Below are positions 39,872 to 52,993 of a DNA stretch of 64,000 nt, piece by piece (position 1 is the stretch's first letter; each line of letters starts with the position of its first letter). The notes beneath the pieces are model-generated. The model saw nothing but the letters and a program-made list of their open reading frames with translations, did not search any database and was not told where the DNA came from. The translations under genes were made by a program, and so were the position numbers. Origin of the DNA: Utricularia gibba (Eukaryota; Streptophyta; Magnoliopsida; Lamiales; Lentibulariaceae); contig CM007992.1 in assembly GCA_002189035.1 (NCBI GenBank), positions 2,046,001 through 2,110,000 on the forward strand, in the 5' to 3' direction.

Positions 39872-40143
39872 TGTTGTTTATTGGGGTCAGCTGCCACCTT
39901 GGACAAGAAGGAGAATGAAGCTCAAGATAAATAAATTACTTTTGTTATTGTATTTCTTTGAGTCTTTTGAAGCATGTGCAAGGTATATGTAATATTGGTA
40001 TGAATACCCAAATTTGTTAAATGTTCAAGTTGTTGGGAACAATTGATTTTGTGTGGGGAGTTTGTCCTTGAAATTTAAGGTTGTTGAATCATCTTGTTCT
40101 TCAAAATTCATCCTTCAATCGTTGAACATTCAAGGTTCTAACA
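39872..40143 (+). repeat. 5' LTR of the degenerate copia element
   Basis: Starts TGTTGTTTATTGGGG, ends GGTTCTAACA, 272 bp. It shares long stretches with 42790-43061, for example 'AACAATTGATTTTGTGTGGG'. Confidence 0.8.
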
Positions 40144-41559
40144 GGGTATCAGAGCTCCAAAGAGTTTGCCTATGAACGAGTAAGTGAATTTATCTGCTAT
40201 CTTTAAAATCTCAGATATGTTTTTATAGCAAAATGGAATCTGGGTATGCACCTTATTCAAAAGCTTGATGCGATGAACTATCGTGAGTGGGTGTTGTTGA
40301 TGACTACTTTTCTCAAAACAAGACAGCCATGGGTATTTGTTGAATATAAGGTTGAAGAGCCAAAATTATCTACAAATCCCACAAATCCAGAGAAAAAGAA
40401 GTGGGAGGAGTTTCATGAGAAACAAGATGCTAAGATGATGGCTCTCCAACTATATGTTGTGTCACCACATGAAATCGGGTCTAAACTGAAAGATAAATTT
40501 GATGGAGATGACCAAATGCGTAAGATTCATGCAAGAACATAATTAGCAGAGTTTGAGAGGAATAAAATGAAATCCACAGAAACCTTGTAGGATTATTATT
40601 ATTGCACTCTTCAACTGGTGAATGAACTACGAGACTTTGGAGAAGATATACCTGAGGAAAAGATCATAGATGAAGCTATGAGGAGTATGCCTGCTAAGTT
40701 TGAAGCAAAGTTATGTACTCTAGAGGCTGGGGACAGTATTAAGAGGGTCTTAAAATTACAGAAAAATGGACTTTTCTTCATTGCAAGCACCTGAGAAACG
40801 AATGGCTATGCGGGAGGAAGAGAAAGAAGCAAGTGAAAATACTCAATCGGTACTCATCAATAAGTCAAGTAGAAATGACACTACTAAAAGGAAAGAAAAG
40901 TAAGCAGAGAACCCAGTGAGTCACGTATTCACTCAAACAAATTTGAACACACTATTCGACAAAACAAGAAAATGCATGTACACATTGTGGCCGAAAATAT
41001 CACTTTCTAGACACTTCATGGCGGCATCTAGATGCAGTTTGTACTTATTGCAAGAGTAAAGGACATAAAGATAGAGTTTGCCCGTCTCAAAATCCTAAGA
41101 GCATACCACCTTCAAGGAAAAACACAAACAATTGCTTTCTGTTATCATGAAGGGAAAATGGAAATTGATAATCAGCTCGATTTTGAGTTTGCATCGAAGG
41201 CATCTGAACAATTATGTGATGGATGGTTCTTAGACAGCAGAGCCTTGAAACACGTGTAAAGAAGCTGTTTATTTTTAGGATATAGCTCGACTATATGCTG
41301 AGATGGTTAAGGGTGTTGTTTCTTGAAAATCAACACAAGTTAAAGGACGAGGAACCATATTTCAAGATGTGGTGATTGAAGATGTGTGCTTCATTCCAGA
41401 TTTGACAAAAAATTTAATCAGCCTTGGACAACTACATAAAAAAAAGTTTCAGATGATACTTATGGAGGAAGAGTTTCAGGTCAAAGATCTTTCTAGCAAG
41501 ATAACAGTTGATGCGGTTGATGAACATTGTAAATTATCGCTAAATGTCACGATCTAACA

Positions 41560-42615
41560 TGTTTAACGCATCAAATTTATAAATCAAACTATTCTACTAC
41601 ATAAATCAAATAAATTAATATAGTATGAAAAGCAAGGTTCAAATCTAAATGAAATAGTTTTAATTTCTCGAATTACTTTACATTTATTGAAAACAAGGGA
41701 GGGTTTCTAGAAGTTTATGTCTTAGATGCGTAAGACATAAAATAACAACAGTTGAAATGAACAAGTTAAGTTATAAGGGTGGAGAAGCATAGAAAATAAT
41801 AGAAATGTGTAGAAAATGTAAAATGAAGGTAACTTGACTGGGTTTTATATTAGGATCTGATTCTTGTGTCACTTAAGAGAGTTCATAAGCTTAAACCCAT
41901 CTTTATCCCATCCAAAAACAGAGTAAATGGTTAATAAAGACATATTAAACTTAAAATTAAAGACAAAGAACTCAAACAAAAATTGGTTCATAAGCTTGAA
42001 TAATGTATACATGAGATTTCTTGTTCACAACCAAGCATAAGAAATGCAAAGAAAAGCATGAAAATACAGAAAATGACAGCAACAAGTTCAATAACAGAAA
42101 TGAAAGTACGGAAAGCCAAAATAAATTGTCAAGCGATTACTCTGGTCGTAGATTTACTTAAACTAAAAGTTCTAGGCATAAATCTGATAGTAAAATGTAG
42201 ATCTGGAGGCTGGCTTGAGCTATTTGCCAGAGAATCACCGTTCTCCTTGCATCCTCATTTTTTTCCTGCTCAAAGGAAGGGCATCTCCATCTTTTGCATA
42301 GGTTTCTTGCTCAAGATCTTATCTTTTTAGAGGACGGTTGCTTTCGGCTAAAAGTCACTTTTGTATAACTTTTCTATTTCTTTTGACTTGTTAACACAGA
42401 AAGTGTGCTATCAGTATTAACTCTTACCCTATTAAGACTAAGATGCAGACTAGGAAGAAACATTAAAGTTTTCGACCCAATTGTTGCTAATTGAACCTAT
42501 TTTCATAACAAACACCTTATAACGAACTAGATGCACAAAAGGAAATAATTACACATATAAAGCAACATTATACCTCATAAAATAACCCTAAAAACACATA
42601 CAATAATTAAATAAA
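41560..42615. mobile_element. Unclassified insertion of about 1.05 kb inside the copia element
   Basis: The copia protease/pre-integrase region stops near 41557 and resumes near 42620, so this segment is an insertion. It has no transposase, no clear terminal inverted repeats, and no target duplication I could fix. The frame 42058-42330 is not recognised. Confidence 0.45.
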
Positions 42616-42789
42616 AATGGTGTTATCTGCAGTCCTATTGTGTAATAATTTGTATAAGCAGGATATTTGTAAGATTTCAAAAAGGTGCTTCAAAATATCA
42701 TAAGAAGCATACCAGTGGCATGGCAGATTTGCTCATTTTGGTATGAAAAAAAATTAAAGATATTTCAAAAGGATGATACTATCAATAGC

Positions 42790-43061
42790 TGATATACTAT
42801 TGGGCCACCTGCCATTTTGGAGAAGAAGGAGAATGAATCTCAGGATAAATAAATTACTTTTGTTATTGTATTTCTTTGACACTTTTGAAGCATATGCAAG
42901 GCATGTGTAATGTGGGTATAAATACTCAACTGTGTTAAATGTTTAAGTTGTCGGGAACAATTGATTTTGTGTGGGGAGCTTGTCCTTGAAATTTAGGGCT
43001 GTTGAATCATCTTGTTCTTCAAAATTCATCCTTCAATAGTTGAACATTTAAGGTTCTAGCA
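42790..43061 (+). repeat. 3' LTR of the degenerate copia element
   Basis: 272 bp, starting TGATATACTATTGGG and ending GGTTCTAGCA. It has more substitutions at its start than elsewhere relative to the 5' LTR. Confidence 0.75.
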
Positions 43062-43089
43062 GAGTCAATAGTTCATCAATTTTTGATAG

Positions 43090-43345
43090 CATACTGTATT
43101 TGATAGCAAAGGCATGTGTTTGGGCTGGCATGATCATTTGGAAGTGGTCTAAAAGGTTGATAGCATAGTGTGTTTGATAAAAATGTAGTTCATGGGCGTT
43201 GGATAGATTTCAACTTCAAGAAAGTGATGCAAGGGGCTGAGATCCTTTATAACAAACACCAAGCTTAAAAGAGCAATATACTTGTAGACAAATGATGATG
43301 AGCTACCTATGATCAAAATGTTATCCACATTGATGCTGTCAAAAA
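43090..43345 (-). pseudogene. Copia reverse-transcriptase fragment
   Basis: The minus strand reads 'INVDNILIIGSSSSFVYKYI', corresponding to the catalytic YVDD-I-I-G region with YVDD changed to NVDN. It continues 'IKDLSPLHHFLEVEIYPT', the usual following segment of copia RT. Stops follow. It is a short isolated piece opposite in strand to the element before it. Confidence 0.65.
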
Positions 43346-44664
43346 TCTTGCCTTTTGGGGTAGACTTTGAGCATCCTCAGATTCTACGTTTGTGTGATTA
43401 AAAAGATGTAAACCCCTTAAAGACAAGGCCATAGTTTTAGCATAAATAGGAATAGCTACACCTCCTTCACAACTCATTTGTCTCATATCCAAGGGTTCCG
43501 TAAAATAGCAATGGCACATCTGGATCCACACATCATTCCTTGGTACAACGCAATCCAGTTAAACAGAGGTCATGACTTCCCAAAAAACTACGCAATGAAT
43601 ACCTACCATACTCCAACCGTAGGCCCATCTTTGTTGATCAACTGTAAATAAAAAAGTGAGCACCTTGGAATTAATAGCGTCTCTTGAGCAGATGCTAGCC
43701 AACCATTTAAATGCTCCTTGGAATTGGCGGATGCCCTATTGTAGTAAAGCTTCCCTTCACTTATTTCTTACACCATTCTCAACTATTCTCAATTCTTTAA
43801 GTGGAGGGAATTTTTTTTGAGTCTGTCCTAACAAGTTAGATAGATTGAATAGCCTGAAGAGAGATTTTTGTATCTCATGTACTGCTTCCCCCACTTACGA
43901 AAAGATAGACGATGGATGTGAAAGGGAGAGTGACTAAGTCGAAGCCCTATGGCTGGGCTTGAATATGGCAGTTAGAAAGAGGGTCAGGATGAATGTGAAG
44001 TGGAAACCATTTTAACAATATTTCATACCTGAAGCCATGTTTCGCACACATTCTGATTATCATTTTGTATTCTTAAAATGAGAAATTGATAATTTTCTAG
44101 AATATAACTATTTTAATTTTCTAGAATGAGAATCTAAAATTCTAAACTCATTCTGATTCTAAAAAATGGCACATGAATATAAAATAAAGTATTTTGCTCA
44201 TTCTGATTTCCATTCTCATTCTAACAATTTTTTTTCATAAATGCTATTTTTCTTACCTATTTCAATTCATTTCTTTAAATTCTTTCTCTAGTTTTCCATT
44301 GTAAAGTTTCGAGAAATTAAAAGACCAAGTGTTTCGTGTGAATTAATATTTGTATTTTATTAAAAACTAATTTCACATTTTGCAATGAAATATATTTCTT
44401 ATTATACAATCTTTTTTTAAAGTTACAGAACACAAACTCATTTTTTATCATTCTCATTAGAGTTCATACTCTCATTTTTTTTTTGAAAACTTATATAGGA
44501 ATATGTGTGGAGCATACTCATAGGGATTGTTTGATTTGAATATTTAAGTTTAACCTGGGTTTCATTTATTTGGTTTAATATACAAGTCTCGTGAATTTCA
44601 AAATAACGTGCTTGATATATATGTAAGAATTATTAAGATTAATTTTCCTTGTTTTGTAAGAAGG
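43346..44664. other. Unassigned region, AT-rich second half
   Basis: 43430-43990 has some open stretches on the minus strand but no recognised domain. 44020-44480 is rich in 'ATTCTGATT' and 'ATTCTCATTCT' phrases on both strands, which might be a decayed hAT-type MITE, but I could not define ends. Confidence 0.3.
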
Positions 44665-44910
44665 CTGGATTCACACACAAGCGAGAGGCTTTTGGGTGGC
44701 TTCTCACCCCCTCTCTGTGCGTAGCTTTTTTGGGTTTTAGGACCCTCCGAAAGCCCAACCCAATCTAATAAATTAGAAACTTGTGTGCGCATGAAACCCA
44801 ACTCACTCTCATGCTCAATAACGTTAATGAAATGGTATACCATATAAATTAGTTGAACTCCTCTTCAACTAGCAATTTGGGATACCCATCCCTTCTCCAA
44901 TACAATAAAT
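44665..44910 (+). repeat. Repeat I, copy 2, with conserved hairpin
   Basis: Same orientation as 35575-35775. It has an additional segment near 44700-44740 and the hairpin variant TAGTTGAACTCCTCTTCAACTA. Minus-strand frames across it are chance. Confidence 0.6.
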
Positions 44911-46019
44911 TTCAATAGAAAAAATATATCATCTATTTAATTTAAATAATTAGATCCGTTCTTTTTAAAAATAAATTAAAAAATATCATGTAAGCTATGA
45001 TCGCAATCATGATATTGATCTGATACTATAATATTTAAAAAAGAAAAATATAATTTTTAATTTACTATGAAATTAATATTTTTTAATGTGATTGCATTAA
45101 TCAAAGGAGAAATAAAAAATGCGGACAATTGCCAACGCGCCCAATAACATCGTGTATTTAAATAATCTACATTTTCCTCTTGATATATATTTTATATTTA
45201 CCGCATGTGTTGAATTGCATTTGATTTATTCAATCTAGGCAAGTAAGAATTGATCATAGTATAATATGCATTCGAAACATGAGTAAAGTATTAAACTCAC
45301 TACCTACCTATCAGATTGTGTCCTTTGAGATTCAACTGGATGACTACCTGATCATCACTCGGGTATTTACCCAAATTTGAAGAATGCAGCCAAACGTAAC
45401 TTTTGGACTTCTTTTACAATTTGGAAATTTTAGTGAAAAGGGTTCCATGTCTTCCAAATATTCCATATTTTCGCTTGATTTGATAGTATCATTCTTTGTA
45501 GGTTTTCTGTAGAGCACTCTGATAAGTATATACTGTAAACTTTATTTAGAAATCAGAAGTTTTATGAACTGAGGAATTATGTCAAAGCAATGAAATATAG
45601 AGAATAAGAAAAAGCGAAAGAAACTAAGGGGCCTTGTTCTAGTAAAGGTGTGAGGATTTTAGGCAAATCCCACATCCATTATAGACGGGGTAGATGGATA
45701 TTTTATATAGAGGGATCTTTTATTTGAACGTCAAACTATGACAGTTGAATATCGTACAAGGAAATGGTGGATTGTAACATTTGGTATTAGAATTAAATTG
45801 GGCTGTAACCAGTGATGGGGAAAACCTTATGAGGACTCCGTGTTTCCAAGGGTGCGGGAGGGTCTTGCTCAACAAAGGGGTTAAGAACCTTAACCAAATT
45901 TTATATCGGTTATGAGCATAGTAGAAGTAAAGTTTATATAGAAGGATCTTCTCAAAAAGAAAGAATGCAAAACTATGGAGGTCGGGTGCCCATAGTAGAT
46001 AATATCATGCAAGAAGAAA
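44911..46019. other. Unassigned region with LTR-like debris
   Basis: 44911-45640 is AT-rich with nothing recognised. 45650-46000 resembles retroelement LTR/leader sequence. Two related phrases occur there, 'TTTATATAGAGGGATCTT' near 45699 and 'TTTATATAGAAGGATCTT' near 45932, and a PBS-like 'TTGGTATTAGAA' lies at about 45781. The resemblance is weak. Confidence 0.3.
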
Positions 46020-47430
46020 GAAAATCTTAACATTCATGATTCGTTGGTCTTTCTTGGAGGATTTCTTGAGAAATTGGCTGACTTATTGTGTCCATAATTA
46101 GGGATGAAGGGTTCTATTCAGCATAATCCATTGAATGGTTGTAATATTGAGTCTTCTAGAGAAGATATGTCAGCCTATCTTCATAAATATATCGTTCAGT
46201 TGGGCCGTGTGATCTTGGAAGTGCAATACATTTCTACATATGGTATTGAGATTTGATGGCATTATATTCTCTTTCATTGAAGATCTTTCGTGGTCATTAT
46301 TTGCATGAGGATCCCTTTCCTACTCATATCCCAATTCTTCTATCATGCTGACATGTGGATGTGTACAAACTGTACGGTGAAATTCTTTGCTATGATGATG
46401 TGAACTCTTTGTATCCTTTTGTGATGGAGAACTATCCTATGCCTAGTGGTATATCATATGGAGAAATCAATTGGAGTTGGTTAGTTTAGACAGCTTATTT
46501 GAATATCTTGAAGTGTACATAGCATTTCTTATATTTATGACCTATTGGTTCATGCCTTATAAATATAAACATGGTATTGGAAGTTGTCTTTTATAGTGAG
46601 GAGTTGATGTTTGCTCGTGATTTAGGTTACAGTGTGATCATTCTAAGCAGGTACATGTTTCAGAAGAAAGCAAATCCTTTCAACGTTTTATTATTGATCT
46701 GTATGAAAATAAACTGGAGACTAAAATGAATGGTGATGAGTCTTATATATAAAATTCTGATGAACTTACTCTATGACCTGTTTGGGATGAATCTCGAAAA
46801 TCTCATCATTAGGAATTGAGATAAAAAACAATATGAAAAATTGTTGATGAGCGATAATTTTCAATCGGTGCCAAAGCTCATCAATCATTACTATGGTGTT
46901 AATTATGTTCTGATTTAAACCATTCAAATAATGACAGCTGGATGACATGGAAAGCATCAGCAGTTCAATTGTACTTGGCCACAATCGATTATTCAAGAAT
47001 TTAATACTCTTAGCACTAAAGAGTTATAACAAATCCTCTTGATGATGATGCTAAAATCCCTCTCATCCAAATTAGTACGTTTAAACTTGAATATAAAGTG
47101 CAAAGGATATATTCTTAGGAACAAAGAGTTACACCATAACAATAGAAAAAGGTTCTAATGCATTAAAATATAAGAGCCTAGCTAAAGATTTTGTCACATG
47201 AGAGTGATTAAAAAAAAAATAATTAGTAGACCTCAAAGAATCCAAGAAGATATCTATGAGTGCTAATTTCCTGACTTGCAACTAGAATGTCTAAGAATAC
47301 CAAAAGTAAAAATAAATATTCAGATAATGAAGAATAGATAAACTTACAAGATCATGTTGTTAATATTAATTTCAAATATGGATTGCGCTCCATAAACTTG
47401 AAAATACAAGAAAAAAAAAATGAAAGAACT
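46020..47430 (+). pseudogene. Family-B DNA polymerase relic, mitochondrial linear-plasmid type
   Basis: Broken frames in order carry the landmarks of protein-primed, organellar/viral type-B DNA polymerases. From 46023: 'NIHDSLVFLGGFLEKLADLL', then 'DMSAYLHKYIVQLGRVIL', the end of the 3'-5' exonuclease region. From 46361: 'YGEILCYDDVNSLYPFVMEN', motif A (DxxSLYP, codons 46397-46417) followed by 'YPMPSG'. From 46598: 'YSEELMFARDLGYSVI'. Near 46751: 'KILMNLLYDLFGMN', degenerate motif B. Near 46945: 'ASAVQLYLATIDYSRI'. Motif C (DTDS) seems lost between about 47005 and 47037. Thumb-like sequence follows ('YTITIEKGSNALKYKSLAKD', about 47130-47195). Stops and frameshifts exclude function. In plants this family is carried by mitochondrial linear plasmids, so a nuclear copy implies transfer from such a plasmid. 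Confidence 0.8.
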
Positions 47431-47499
47431 CATTAATGACAAATTTGATAATAGCATGGATTTGGAGATACTTGATGTTGATCACCATGGACATGAAGC

Positions 47500-47600
47500 T
47501 AGCTCAAGTTACATAGATTGAGGAAAGCATCAACCATTCAATTGTCCGTGGCTACAATCGATTCTTTGAGAATTCATATGTACCCATACATGGTAACCAT
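47500..47600 (+). pseudogene. Second fragment of the polymerase 'VQL' region
   Basis: The frame reads 'KASTIQLSVATIDSLRIHMYP', a diverged second version of 'ASAVQLYLATIDYSRI' at 46945-47005, and extends further into the MYP segment that normally precedes motif C. About 500 bp separate the two. This is either a tandem partial duplication or a second plasmid-derived copy. Confidence 0.6.
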
Positions 47601-47895
47601 CTGAACTTGGGATCTAGATGTTTGGAATGTTACTGGATCCAAGCGAGTCACCGGTTCCTTCAGCATGGTTCTTCCCTCCGGTAGTCATACTCTCAAGTCT
47701 TTCATTTGTTGTGGTTTCATGATTTCCAGGGAATAATACTGCATAAACTTAATAGAGAAACCAAATCTGACATAACGTTCAAAGGAGATACACACACAAC
47801 ACTTAGAAAATAGAGATTTCGTTCCCTAATCACCAAGGCCTTGGTTCACTCTGCCACTTCATCAGCTGCTCCAGCCGCAATAGTCTATTGAAGGT

Positions 47896-48124
47896 GCCAG
47901 ATCACATTCACAAATCAGCTATCACATCACCTTCCAAAGATGTTGATGCATAAATTCCTCTTCAGCCGATTTTACTGGATTATAGTTTTTACTCCTTTGT
48001 AGTGGGCTATAAGTCCAAACCTATATATAAACATTGTGTAGCATTAGAAAACTCACGAATTGGAAAATTTTGTAGTAGGATCTACGACTCCAGATTTCCA
48101 TTTTCTCATTTTTTCTTTTGAACA
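47896..48124 (+). repeat. 5' LTR of the degenerate copia element
   Basis: Shares 'GATCACATTCACAAATCAGC' at its start with 52528 onward and ends TTTTGAACA directly before the primer-binding site. A TATA-like 'CCTATATATAAAC' lies near 48022. Confidence 0.75.
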
Positions 48125-51100
48125 TGGTATTAGAGCCATATGTTTGTTATCTCATTCCTGTGGGTTTTCTTTCTACTTGGTTCAATTTCTATCTATGTGA
48201 CATTCATCAATGGCTAGAACATACGATTCATGATCTGCAAATGTAATGAGTGGGCAGAATGAAAAAGATTCCAATCTCCTTTCACTTTCTTGTAATTCAA
48301 TGCTTCTTTTGACAGCATCTGACAATCCTTGTACTGCTTTGATTAGTTTTCCGCTTACTACTACCAACTTCAGTGATTGCAGTCATGCTATGAAATCATC
48401 TTTGGATTGCAAAAAGATAAATTGGAATTTGTCACTAGTGAGATGTTTATACTCACATATGATTCTCCTAAGTTCAGATTATGGTAGAAGGCTGATAGTA
48501 TGGTGTGTTCATGGCTGTTGCGTGACATTTCTAGAGATCTAATTCCTACTTTCAGTATGGCTATTACCGCACTTGAAATGTGAATATCTCTTGAAACTCA
48601 TTTTGGCCAATGAGGCACTTGGATTGTTTTTTTGTCTTTTTAAGGAACTATTTGTATTGGAACAAGGAAATATGAATGTTATGGATTATTATTTGAAAGT
48701 GCACACTCTATGGCATGAAATTTTTCGCATTTTACCTATCTCCCAATGTAGTAATTGTGGCACTTATTTGGATGCGGATGGAGGCTTGGCTATGGTTTGT
48801 TTGACATACTTTATAGCAGGATTTATGGACTCATATGACTCAACTCCAAATTTCATATTACTATGAAACCAACACCTAACTTTCAAGATGCATTTTCTAT
48901 TGTCTTCAACACAGAGCCTGCTAAGGACAAGATGACTAATGTTATTGATCCAGCATTATTGAACAAGGTTGCGAATGATTTTAACATGCCAACATCCGGA
49001 AGTTCAAGAGGGAGGGATAAAAAGTTGACATTCTGTACAATGTACAACAAGAAGGGTCACTTAAGGGAATCATGTTTTAAAGGATTATCAAATGCTGAAC
49101 TACCAATTTGGTATCTTGAGTTTAAAAGGAAATATGGAAAATAAGTTCATGGAAAAGCATCAAATCAAGCAAATAGCATGAAGAATATTAATATCTCATA
49201 TGCTAATAAATAAGAACTTTTTATTGCACACACCATCAATTTAATTAAACATGAGATACTCACTTGACTGGAGTGGGTGAATTCAGTGATAATTGCTTTT
49301 CCCTTATATCGCACTTGGTGCTTTGCATGATTCATATGATTTATGATTCTAAGAATCATTGTGCTGCTATTCAGTGTTCTTCTATTAATTTGTTTGATAA
49401 ATGTGTGGAGCCATATCGTCATTGTGAATGGGTGGTTGACACTAGTGCTACAGCTCACATGCATTTTCTCTAATATATTTTGACACTTTTTACTTAGTTT
49501 TGTTTTTCTGCCTGATGGATCAGCAAAGAACATCACCCATACCAAAACTATAAAGTTGTCTTCCACTCTCACCCTAACCTCACTTTATCTTGTTCCTTCC
49601 TTTAAGTTCAATTTAATTTCCACAAGCAAGCTAGTTGAAGTTGAAGTACAATTACTTTTTTGTGGATCTTGTTGTTTTCTCTAGGACCTTCGATCTAACT
49701 CATTACTTGGGAAGGGAAGATTGAAAGTAGGGTTTTATGTGATAGATGCAAATGATTTCAACCTCAAGTTTTACCACTTATTCTAAAGTGTTGAAACATT
49801 TTTTTCGCTTGCTATATGTGATATTTTTTAGACATTGTGATGATATGATCCATAAAACCAATTGTTTTTCACTTACTGTAACGTCAACTAACTCCTCCTT
49901 ATTATGGCACTTGCGTATGGGGCCATGTTGCCACTACTATGGGAAGTCATTACCTTTTTCTTGTAGTTTGGGTGATAATCATTGTCATGTTTGTGAATTT
50001 GTTAAATTCCATAGATTGCCATTTTGCTTAAGTGAAAATCATTCTATTGGAGCCTTTATGTATAATCCACAATGACATTTGGGGTCCATATAACATTCCT
50101 ATTTATTCTGGATATTGTTTCCATTTTACCATTGTGGATGATCGTCGTAGAAGTACCTGGACCTATCTCTTATCCAATAAAACACATGCTTTTTCAGCCT
50201 TACATAATTTTATTCCCAATTTGATCATGTCATATGCATCATGTGTTTTGATAATGAAGATGAATTTACTGGAAAGAATTTAATTAATTGGATCTGGTTA
50301 GGAATTCTTCCAAAAAACTCATGTCCTCATTCTCCTCAACAAAATGGTGTGGTTGAGTGAAAATGTTGTAGCGTGCTTAATATTGCTAGAGCTCTTATGT
50401 TTCAATCTTGTTTATCATATGAATATTGGGGAGATAGTATTTTGACAATCACCTATATTCATAATAGATTACCTTTTGCACTGTTGGCTTGGAAATCACC
50501 TATAGAAGTATTGCTGAAACAGACTCCTACTTTTTCTCATATGAGAGTCTTCGGTTTCTTATGCTATGCAGTAACTTTAAATCCTGCAAAGGGCAATCAT
50601 AAGGGATACGGATTTGATTTTTCTATCAAATCTACCTTTGTCTCCCGAGATGTAAAATTCTAGGAAAATCTTTTTCTTTTTAAGTATTCACTTGATCATA
50701 ATTTGGACACTTTGGAACCCATGTTGTCATTTTCTTTTGGAACCTCAAATTGTCATTGACTCTGCCATTCCTTCATCAGCATCTAATATCACATGCCTTC
50801 CAATTTCTAAGACTAGTTCATCTACAATTTAGCAACCATATTTTTCCCCTCCAATGTGATCCACGAAAGATAATATTGGTGATGCTTCCGCTAGCTTTCC
50901 CAATCAGCCACATTCACCCTTGAAACACTTGGTGATCTAAACTACCTCCCATTTTCTCCACCCATGTCGAGTACTTCAGTTTTGGTTCAACAATAGAAGA
51001 CAAGTGTTCTATGGCTCTCATGTTCAGGTATGGAAGTAGAGGAGAGATCAACAATTAGGTTGGTACAATTAGGCAAATGGTAAACCTGAATGGAAGATGG

Positions 51101-52527
51101 CTATGAAGGAGGAGCTTGATGATTTGGAGAAAAATAGTACTTGGAAGTTGGTAGTGCTTCCACCTCATTGCAAGCTCATTGGTTGTAAATGGGTTTTTTC
51201 ACATTAAATTGAATCCTGATGGATCAATGGCATGTTACAAGGCAACCCTAATAGTAAAGGGTTATACGCAGATTGAAGGGAAAGATTATTATGATTGTTT
51301 TTCATCTGTAACAAAGATGGTAAGCATTCGTGTCATTATTGCACTAGATGCTGCTAATGATTGGTTTTTGCATCAATTCGATATTAATAATACTTTTTTA
51401 TGGGCATCTAGATGAAACCATTTACATGCATATTCCTAATGGTTATTCTCATGGCAAACCAGGTGATGTATGTCTTCTACAGCATTCACTTTATGGACTG
51501 AAACATGCATCCTGTCAATGGAACATTGAGTTGATGAATACCTTGATAACCTATGGTTTTACTCAATCTAATGCTGATGCATGTCTTTTCACTTACTATT
51601 GGTGATGTGCATACTCACTTGTTGATCTACGTATATGACATATTGGTGGCTGGTCCGGATTTAGAGATTATATGCAAGATAAAGTACTCTTTACATCACT
51701 TATTTATGAGGATATGGAAGATGAAACCTTTTTTCTTGAGCTTGAATTAAAAGGTATGAGTGCTAGATTTTTCCTCTTTCAATAAAAATATGAATCCAAT
51801 ATTGTGACTCACTTAGGCATGTAAGACAATACCCCATCTCTTGCACCTATTTTGAAAATTTTCACTTCGGGATTCCCAATGATGGTTTATTTCTGGATGA
51901 AACTCGCAATAGAATGATGGCGGGGCATTTACTTTAACTTGGGTTTACTCGCTCAGATTTGGCATATGTCACTCAACAACTTAGTTAATTTGTAAATCAT
52001 CCCACTAATAAACAATGGATTGCAGCCAAGCACATGGTGCGTTATTTGAAAGGTTCTCTCACTTGAGGTTTGTTCTTTCTTGCGGATTTATCATTAAGCT
52101 TGGATGGTAATTGTGATGTCGATAGGGCTACCTATCTTGTTCGTCGTAAGTTGATCTTAGGATATTGCATCTTTCTTAGTCCTTTAATCTCTTTGAAGGC
52201 TAAGAAACAAACATTGGTAGCACATTCTTCGGTGAAGGTAGAATATCATAGCTTGGCATTAACTACTAAAGATCTTTCATAGGATGTTCCTTTACCCATT
52301 CCTCTTTGGTGCGAAAATCAAGTGGCTTTGCTTATTGCCTCCAATCTCATTTTTCACAAATAGACAAAACATATTGAGATTGATTGTCATGTTGTGAATG
52401 ACTAGCAAAAATCTGGTTTTTTGTCCTTTAGTTTTGATCCCTCTCCGGTGCAACTAGCTGATATTTTTACCAAGGCACTTGGCTCCATAGTTCTCTTCCC
52501 TTATTGGCAAGCTGGGACTTTGCGATC

Positions 52528-52748
52528 ACATTCACAAATCAGCTACCACATCACCCTCCGAATATGTTAATGCGTAACTTCCTTTTGGGCCCATTTTACT
52601 GGATTTTAGTTTTTACTCCATTGTATGAGCTATAAGCCCAAACCTATATATACACATTGTGCAGTATCAAAAAACTCACAAACTGGAAAATTTTTCTAGA
52701 AGCATCTATGACTCTTGATTTCCATTTTCTCAATTTTTCTTTTGAATA
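52528..52748 (+). repeat. 3' LTR of the degenerate copia element
   Basis: Matches 47905-48124, ends TTTTGAATA, and is followed by unrelated sequence leading into the minus-strand gypsy fragment. Confidence 0.75.
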
Positions 52749-52993
52749 TAGTCCAACTTGAAGTGTCACCTACACACGAGTAAGGGGTTACCTTGAGTGT
52801 AGGATAGCCCAAAATTCCAACCAAAACACAAGCTACATAAGCACATAAAGCATATAAAACTCGTACTGTGGTTGGTTCCACCTGATATACTTCATGGCGT
52901 TTATTCAGCCTGGGCCCCCAGTTAGGTTGGGTCTCCTACTGTGGGATCGGACGAATCTCCACGCGGCTTTTCATCTCGGCTCTGAAGTCGTCG

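Follow-up and report, generated by a model that had tools for sequence, protein, structure and literature searches.

Plasmid polymerases in mitochondria and plant nuclei

Protein-primed replication is established for mitochondrial linear plasmids and the polymerase family that they encode, to which the locus described here is tied by sequence homology alone, and most of these plasmids (not all) also carry a companion gene for a phage-type RNA polymerase. Among the described systems, the mitochondrial plasmid polymerase of the fungus Moniliophthora perniciosa is characterised by Dx2SLYP, motif B, YxDTDS and KxY (PMC2746187). The mitochondrial DNA of Utricularia reniformis contains two polymerase-B pseudogenes and one RNA polymerase pseudogene (PMC5516982), and mitochondrial plasmid polymerases in the nuclear genomes of land plants are reported in the survey by Wei, Gong and Han (2023; PMC10583447).

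The present locus lies in Utricularia gibba, on contig C4, in a window (i.e. the whole stretch of DNA that was analysed) of 64,000 nucleotides, and is very probably a decayed, duplicated nuclear copy of a mitochondrial linear-plasmid DNA polymerase. It belongs to the same family and has the same nuclear setting as the land-plant copies and is an example of the published phenomenon of plasmid-derived polymerases in land-plant nuclei (PMC10583447). Compared with those copies, it is heavily decayed and locally duplicated, and an RNA polymerase gene was not found. The U. reniformis pseudogenes are likewise pseudogenised type-B polymerases of the organellar/viral kind, from the same genus, but they reside in mitochondrial DNA, whereas the relic resides on a nuclear contig.

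Identity, extent and damage of the relic

In a Pfam scan of the forward strand, in which translations were read through stops, the window matched PF03175.18 (DNA_pol_B_2, organellar and viral) at 46373-46855 (+) with an E value of 7.6e-17 and a score of 61.8 bits, which exceeds the curated cut-off of 25.8 bits. This palm/fingers core corresponds to positions 228-410 of the 468 of the profile, covers motifs A and B, and is interrupted by frameshifts and in-frame stops (five stops inside the match). PF03175 was the sole significant Pfam family in a six-frame scan of both strands of 42001-51000, the other matches being weak ones to copia families. The polymerase call agrees with weak matches in PHROG to families 1907 and 11768, both of phage DNA polymerases. 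Since the match has a single orientation, is collinear and is common to four other genomic copies, the likeness to a polymerase is not due to chance. This bears out the type-B polymerase relic proposed in an earlier note on this DNA, which had staked the proposal on PF03175 being matched across at least two motifs without a better family; both motifs A and B are covered, and no better family was found. Query P0001 gave no relative in phages or bacterial plasmids (tblastn) or among PDB sequences, and four viral-contig scans gave none either. Scanning the window for tRNA genes and Rfam families yielded no matches.

Judging from the aligned copies, polymerase-like sequence in the window extends from about 45290 (exonuclease region) to about 47420 (thumb). 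The earlier note had placed the polymerase at 46020-47600, where it is indeed present, but the 5' start was drawn too narrowly: the relic begins at about 45290, and 46020 lies close to the end of, but still within, a 409-base insertion by which the exonuclease part is interrupted. The boundaries of the relic, as well as Exo II, motif C and the thumb of the window, were established by reading translations by eye against the copies, and the window's Exo II, motif C and thumb parts have no Pfam match of their own.

The decayed 5' exonuclease region (45290-45625, +) aligns with L022 (82%), L023 (84%) and L025 (71%), three of the other copies, and includes FHIFA*FD at 45461-45484 (+), assigned by eye as a remnant of Exo II. 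A homologue of this 5' part in L025 (5231-5535), which extends from just after Exo II into Exo III, matches PF03175 33-106 with an E value of 2.6e-5. The 409-base insertion (45626-46034, no strand) is a dispersed repeat that has no counterpart in these three copies, and it has partial relatives on contigs C1 and C317. It is followed by the decayed Exo III-type region and the linker to the palm (46035-46372, +), assigned by reading through the frame and by homologous pieces of L022 and L025 that match PF03175 at positions 143-241 and 159-209, respectively. The Exo III-type sequence is HDSLVFLGGFLEKLADLLCP (46035-46097, +), and the exonuclease-type sequence NIHDSLVFLGGFLEKLADLLCP (46029-46097, +) represents the exonuclease remnant that had been noticed earlier, in a region that reaches further upstream.

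The other motif readings of the earlier note were likewise recovered: motif A is intact as DDVNSLYP at 46394-46417 (DVNSLYP conforming to Dx2SLYP), motif B is degenerate (KILMNLLYDLFG at 46751-46786, inside the PF03175 match), and the thumb-like remnant is a thumb-type sequence with the KxY-like triplet KSY at 47124-47132. The last of these lies in a decayed stretch (46856-47420, +) that comprises the B-to-C interval, the lost motif C, the thumb and the C-terminal stretch, and is collinear with L022, L024 and L025; by itself it gives no Pfam match, its assignment being based on collinearity and motif reading. Motif C (YxDTDS) is unreadable in the window and is traceable only in the copies on contig C255, as STDS in L024 and HIDS in L025. 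A second, incomplete copy of the sequence immediately preceding motif C (resembling 46940-47003) is found at 47510-47595 (+) by BLAST and read-through, and 47522-47576 matches L022:6363-6417 (BLAST), i.e. the rearranged end of the relic is common to the window and L022.

The window copy is disabled by stops, several frame changes, the 409-base insertion and this rearranged second copy. The absence of motif C from the window is taken as loss by decay, which makes the window copy a relic rather than a functional member of the family. Polymerases of this kind cannot catalyse without motif C, and with motif C gone and the frame broken many times, a present function of the relic as a polymerase is excluded on sequence grounds.

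Copies, divergence and duplication

DNA comparison of the window with the rest of the assembly (100.1 Mb, 516 contigs) brings the total to five copies of differing divergence, the window included, of which three are located on C4 and two on C255. The other C4 copies, L022 (C4:2138255-2140410) and the inverted L023 (C4:1898399-1899443), which ends at the equivalent of window position 46175, are 82-88% identical to the window, compared with 65-80% for L025 (C255:1074138-1076335) and 66% for L024 (C255:1048801-1049259). Successive pieces of L025 match PF03175 at 33-106, 159-209, 208-285 and 328-403; they follow the order of the profile, which means that the greater part of the polymerase was originally there. 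L024 has no Pfam match in the three forward frames, and its identity therefore follows from DNA similarity and motif reading. Besides the traces of motif C, the landmarks include KIIMNTLYSRFG in L025, KCY in L024 and KRY in L022. The landmarks of the M. perniciosa polymerase are thereby traceable across the relic copies, although the one is a fungal mitochondrial plasmid enzyme and the other a plant nuclear pseudogene. Just upstream of the C255 relic ends a repeat element (L025:1069-5091), copies of which occur on several contigs at an identity of 86-92%.

Over the BLAST-alignable stretches, to which all divergence counts are confined, the K2P distance from the window was 0.153 for L022, 0.158 for L023, 0.285 for L025 and 0.361 for L024. 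With the codon phase set by hand, divergence at codon positions 1/2/3 amounted to 0.153/0.135/0.123 for L022 and 0.230/0.223/0.248 for L025, and this near-equality over the positions fits decay without coding constraint. The three C4 copies are segmental duplicates (K2P about 0.15), and about 6.5 kb, flanks included, is common to the window and its C4 neighbour, which means that the relic multiplied as nuclear DNA.

Nuclear setting

The window contig C4 measures 3.85 Mb, contains nuclear repeats both inside the relic and beside it as well as local segmental duplication, and is separate from the mitochondrial contig C515 (267.5 kb), which carries cox1; the nuclear location that had been proposed is thereby supported. 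The cox1 gene of C515 (L041:3400-6000, - strand) consists of two exons, with a LAGLIDADG endonuclease in the intron. Searches with the PF03175 profile, query P0003 and DNA gave no match on C515. The flanks of the relic gave no match to C515 either among the best 39-40 candidates, which were those scored and were filled by high-copy repeats; given the gaps in the assembly and the scoring of only the best candidates, such an absence of matches is weak evidence.

The nearest LTR pair that was found belongs to a copia-like element and lies wholly downstream of the relic. Its 5' LTR (47900-48128, +) is part of the flank and not of the relic, and its partner (52524-52752) is a direct repeat at a spacing of 4624, the pair being 85-87% identical; inside the element there are weak profile matches to copia gag_3 and SH3. 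The relic does not lie between these LTRs, and the earlier statement that it belongs to no LTR element is thus borne out as regards the nearest pair found. Elsewhere in the window, a repeat roughly 1.1 kb long (41518-42628) is dispersed over many contigs, with more than 25 relatives that are 68-77% identical. Repeated segmental duplication, in both orientations, spreads blocks of the relic neighbourhood, as seen in C4:1898399-1910599, C4:2130100-2140410 and window positions 40039-49355.

Origin and alternative explanations

Whether the locus is a relic of a mitochondrial plasmid at all can be questioned in two ways. It could be an artefact of assembly, or mitochondrial sequence that is still alive, in favour of which there is only the general possibility of chimeric contigs. 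Given that the five copies differ in divergence and lie on two contigs, that nuclear repeats occur inside and beside them, and that the mitochondrial contig gave no match, this can practically be dismissed. Alternatively, it could descend from another protein-primed polymerase element (e.g. Polinton/Maverick or virophage-like), since several kinds of these fall within PF03175 and have Dx2SLYP in common. However, a six-frame scan of 42001-51000 at E values up to 0.01 detected neither a capsid nor a packaging ATPase nor a protease profile, and the 2023 survey calls such land-plant nuclear copies mitochondrial plasmids (PMC10583447), which makes this origin very unlikely. From family membership, motif resemblance and the literature (PMC10583447, PMC5516982) we infer a plant plasmid as the source, rather than one from fungi or some other protein-primed element, and the plasmid fragment in the nucleus that the earlier note had envisaged is supported to that extent. 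A relic of the plasmid RNA polymerase was not found: PF00940 gave only three clusters genome-wide, all elsewhere (C213, C413 and C2), which look like ordinary nuclear RPOT genes, and no match within 42001-51000 in a six-frame Pfam scan. Terminal inverted repeats were not noticed, and the ends of the relic are disrupted by repeats.

With a mitochondrial linear plasmid as the source, the enzyme would, when alive, have replicated the plasmid in mitochondria, with protein priming from a terminal protein. A piece of the plasmid, or of a plasmid already integrated in mitochondrial DNA, would then have been taken up into the nuclear genome, probably in the course of double-strand-break repair, and there without selection it would have decayed, received repeat insertions and been copied by local segmental duplication. 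As to the route (free plasmid or within mitochondrial DNA), which is drawn from general knowledge of organelle-to-nucleus transfer, it is possible, though somewhat doubtful, that the plasmid first integrated in the main mitochondrial chromosome and then reached the nucleus within an ordinary NUMT. The polymerase-B and RNA-polymerase pseudogenes in the mitochondrial genome of U. reniformis (PMC5516982) imply that integrated plasmid pieces exist in the genus, but neither the relic nor its flanks match C515, a point that carries little weight for the flanks. The number of arrivals is a related matter. An in-frame TAG and a 4-base deletion (frameshift) are common to the two C255 copies and missing from the C4 copies, while the window and L022 have in common a shift of frame near 46479 and a deletion preceding motif C, both of which the C255 copies lack. 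These disabling changes, which were identified by eye at a small number of sites, suggest that the relics form two groups, which may stem from one old arrival or from two. Only the polymerase is common to the C4 and C255 copies, a common flank not having been seen, and none of the disabling changes that were checked is common to both groups, as would be expected if the groups were separate transfers of the same plasmid lineage. An old duplication whose flanks later decayed would look the same, however, and the two groups diverge to a similar degree at all three codon positions, so that most of this divergence accumulated after decay had set in. Two nuclear captures of one mitochondrial plasmid lineage within one small plant genome are therefore proposed only tentatively.

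Biological meaning

As a decayed nuclear copy of a plasmid polymerase, the relic would preserve, in fossil form, a mitochondrial plasmid of a kind that has left no sign in the mitochondrial contig of the host. If there were indeed two captures, transfer from plasmid to nucleus would be a recurring event, and the nucleus would serve as a fossil record of plasmids that have since been lost from the mitochondrion. If several relics of this type were compared among related species, they could reveal which plasmids the hosts carried, when these disappeared and how frequently plasmid DNA was transferred to the nucleus.
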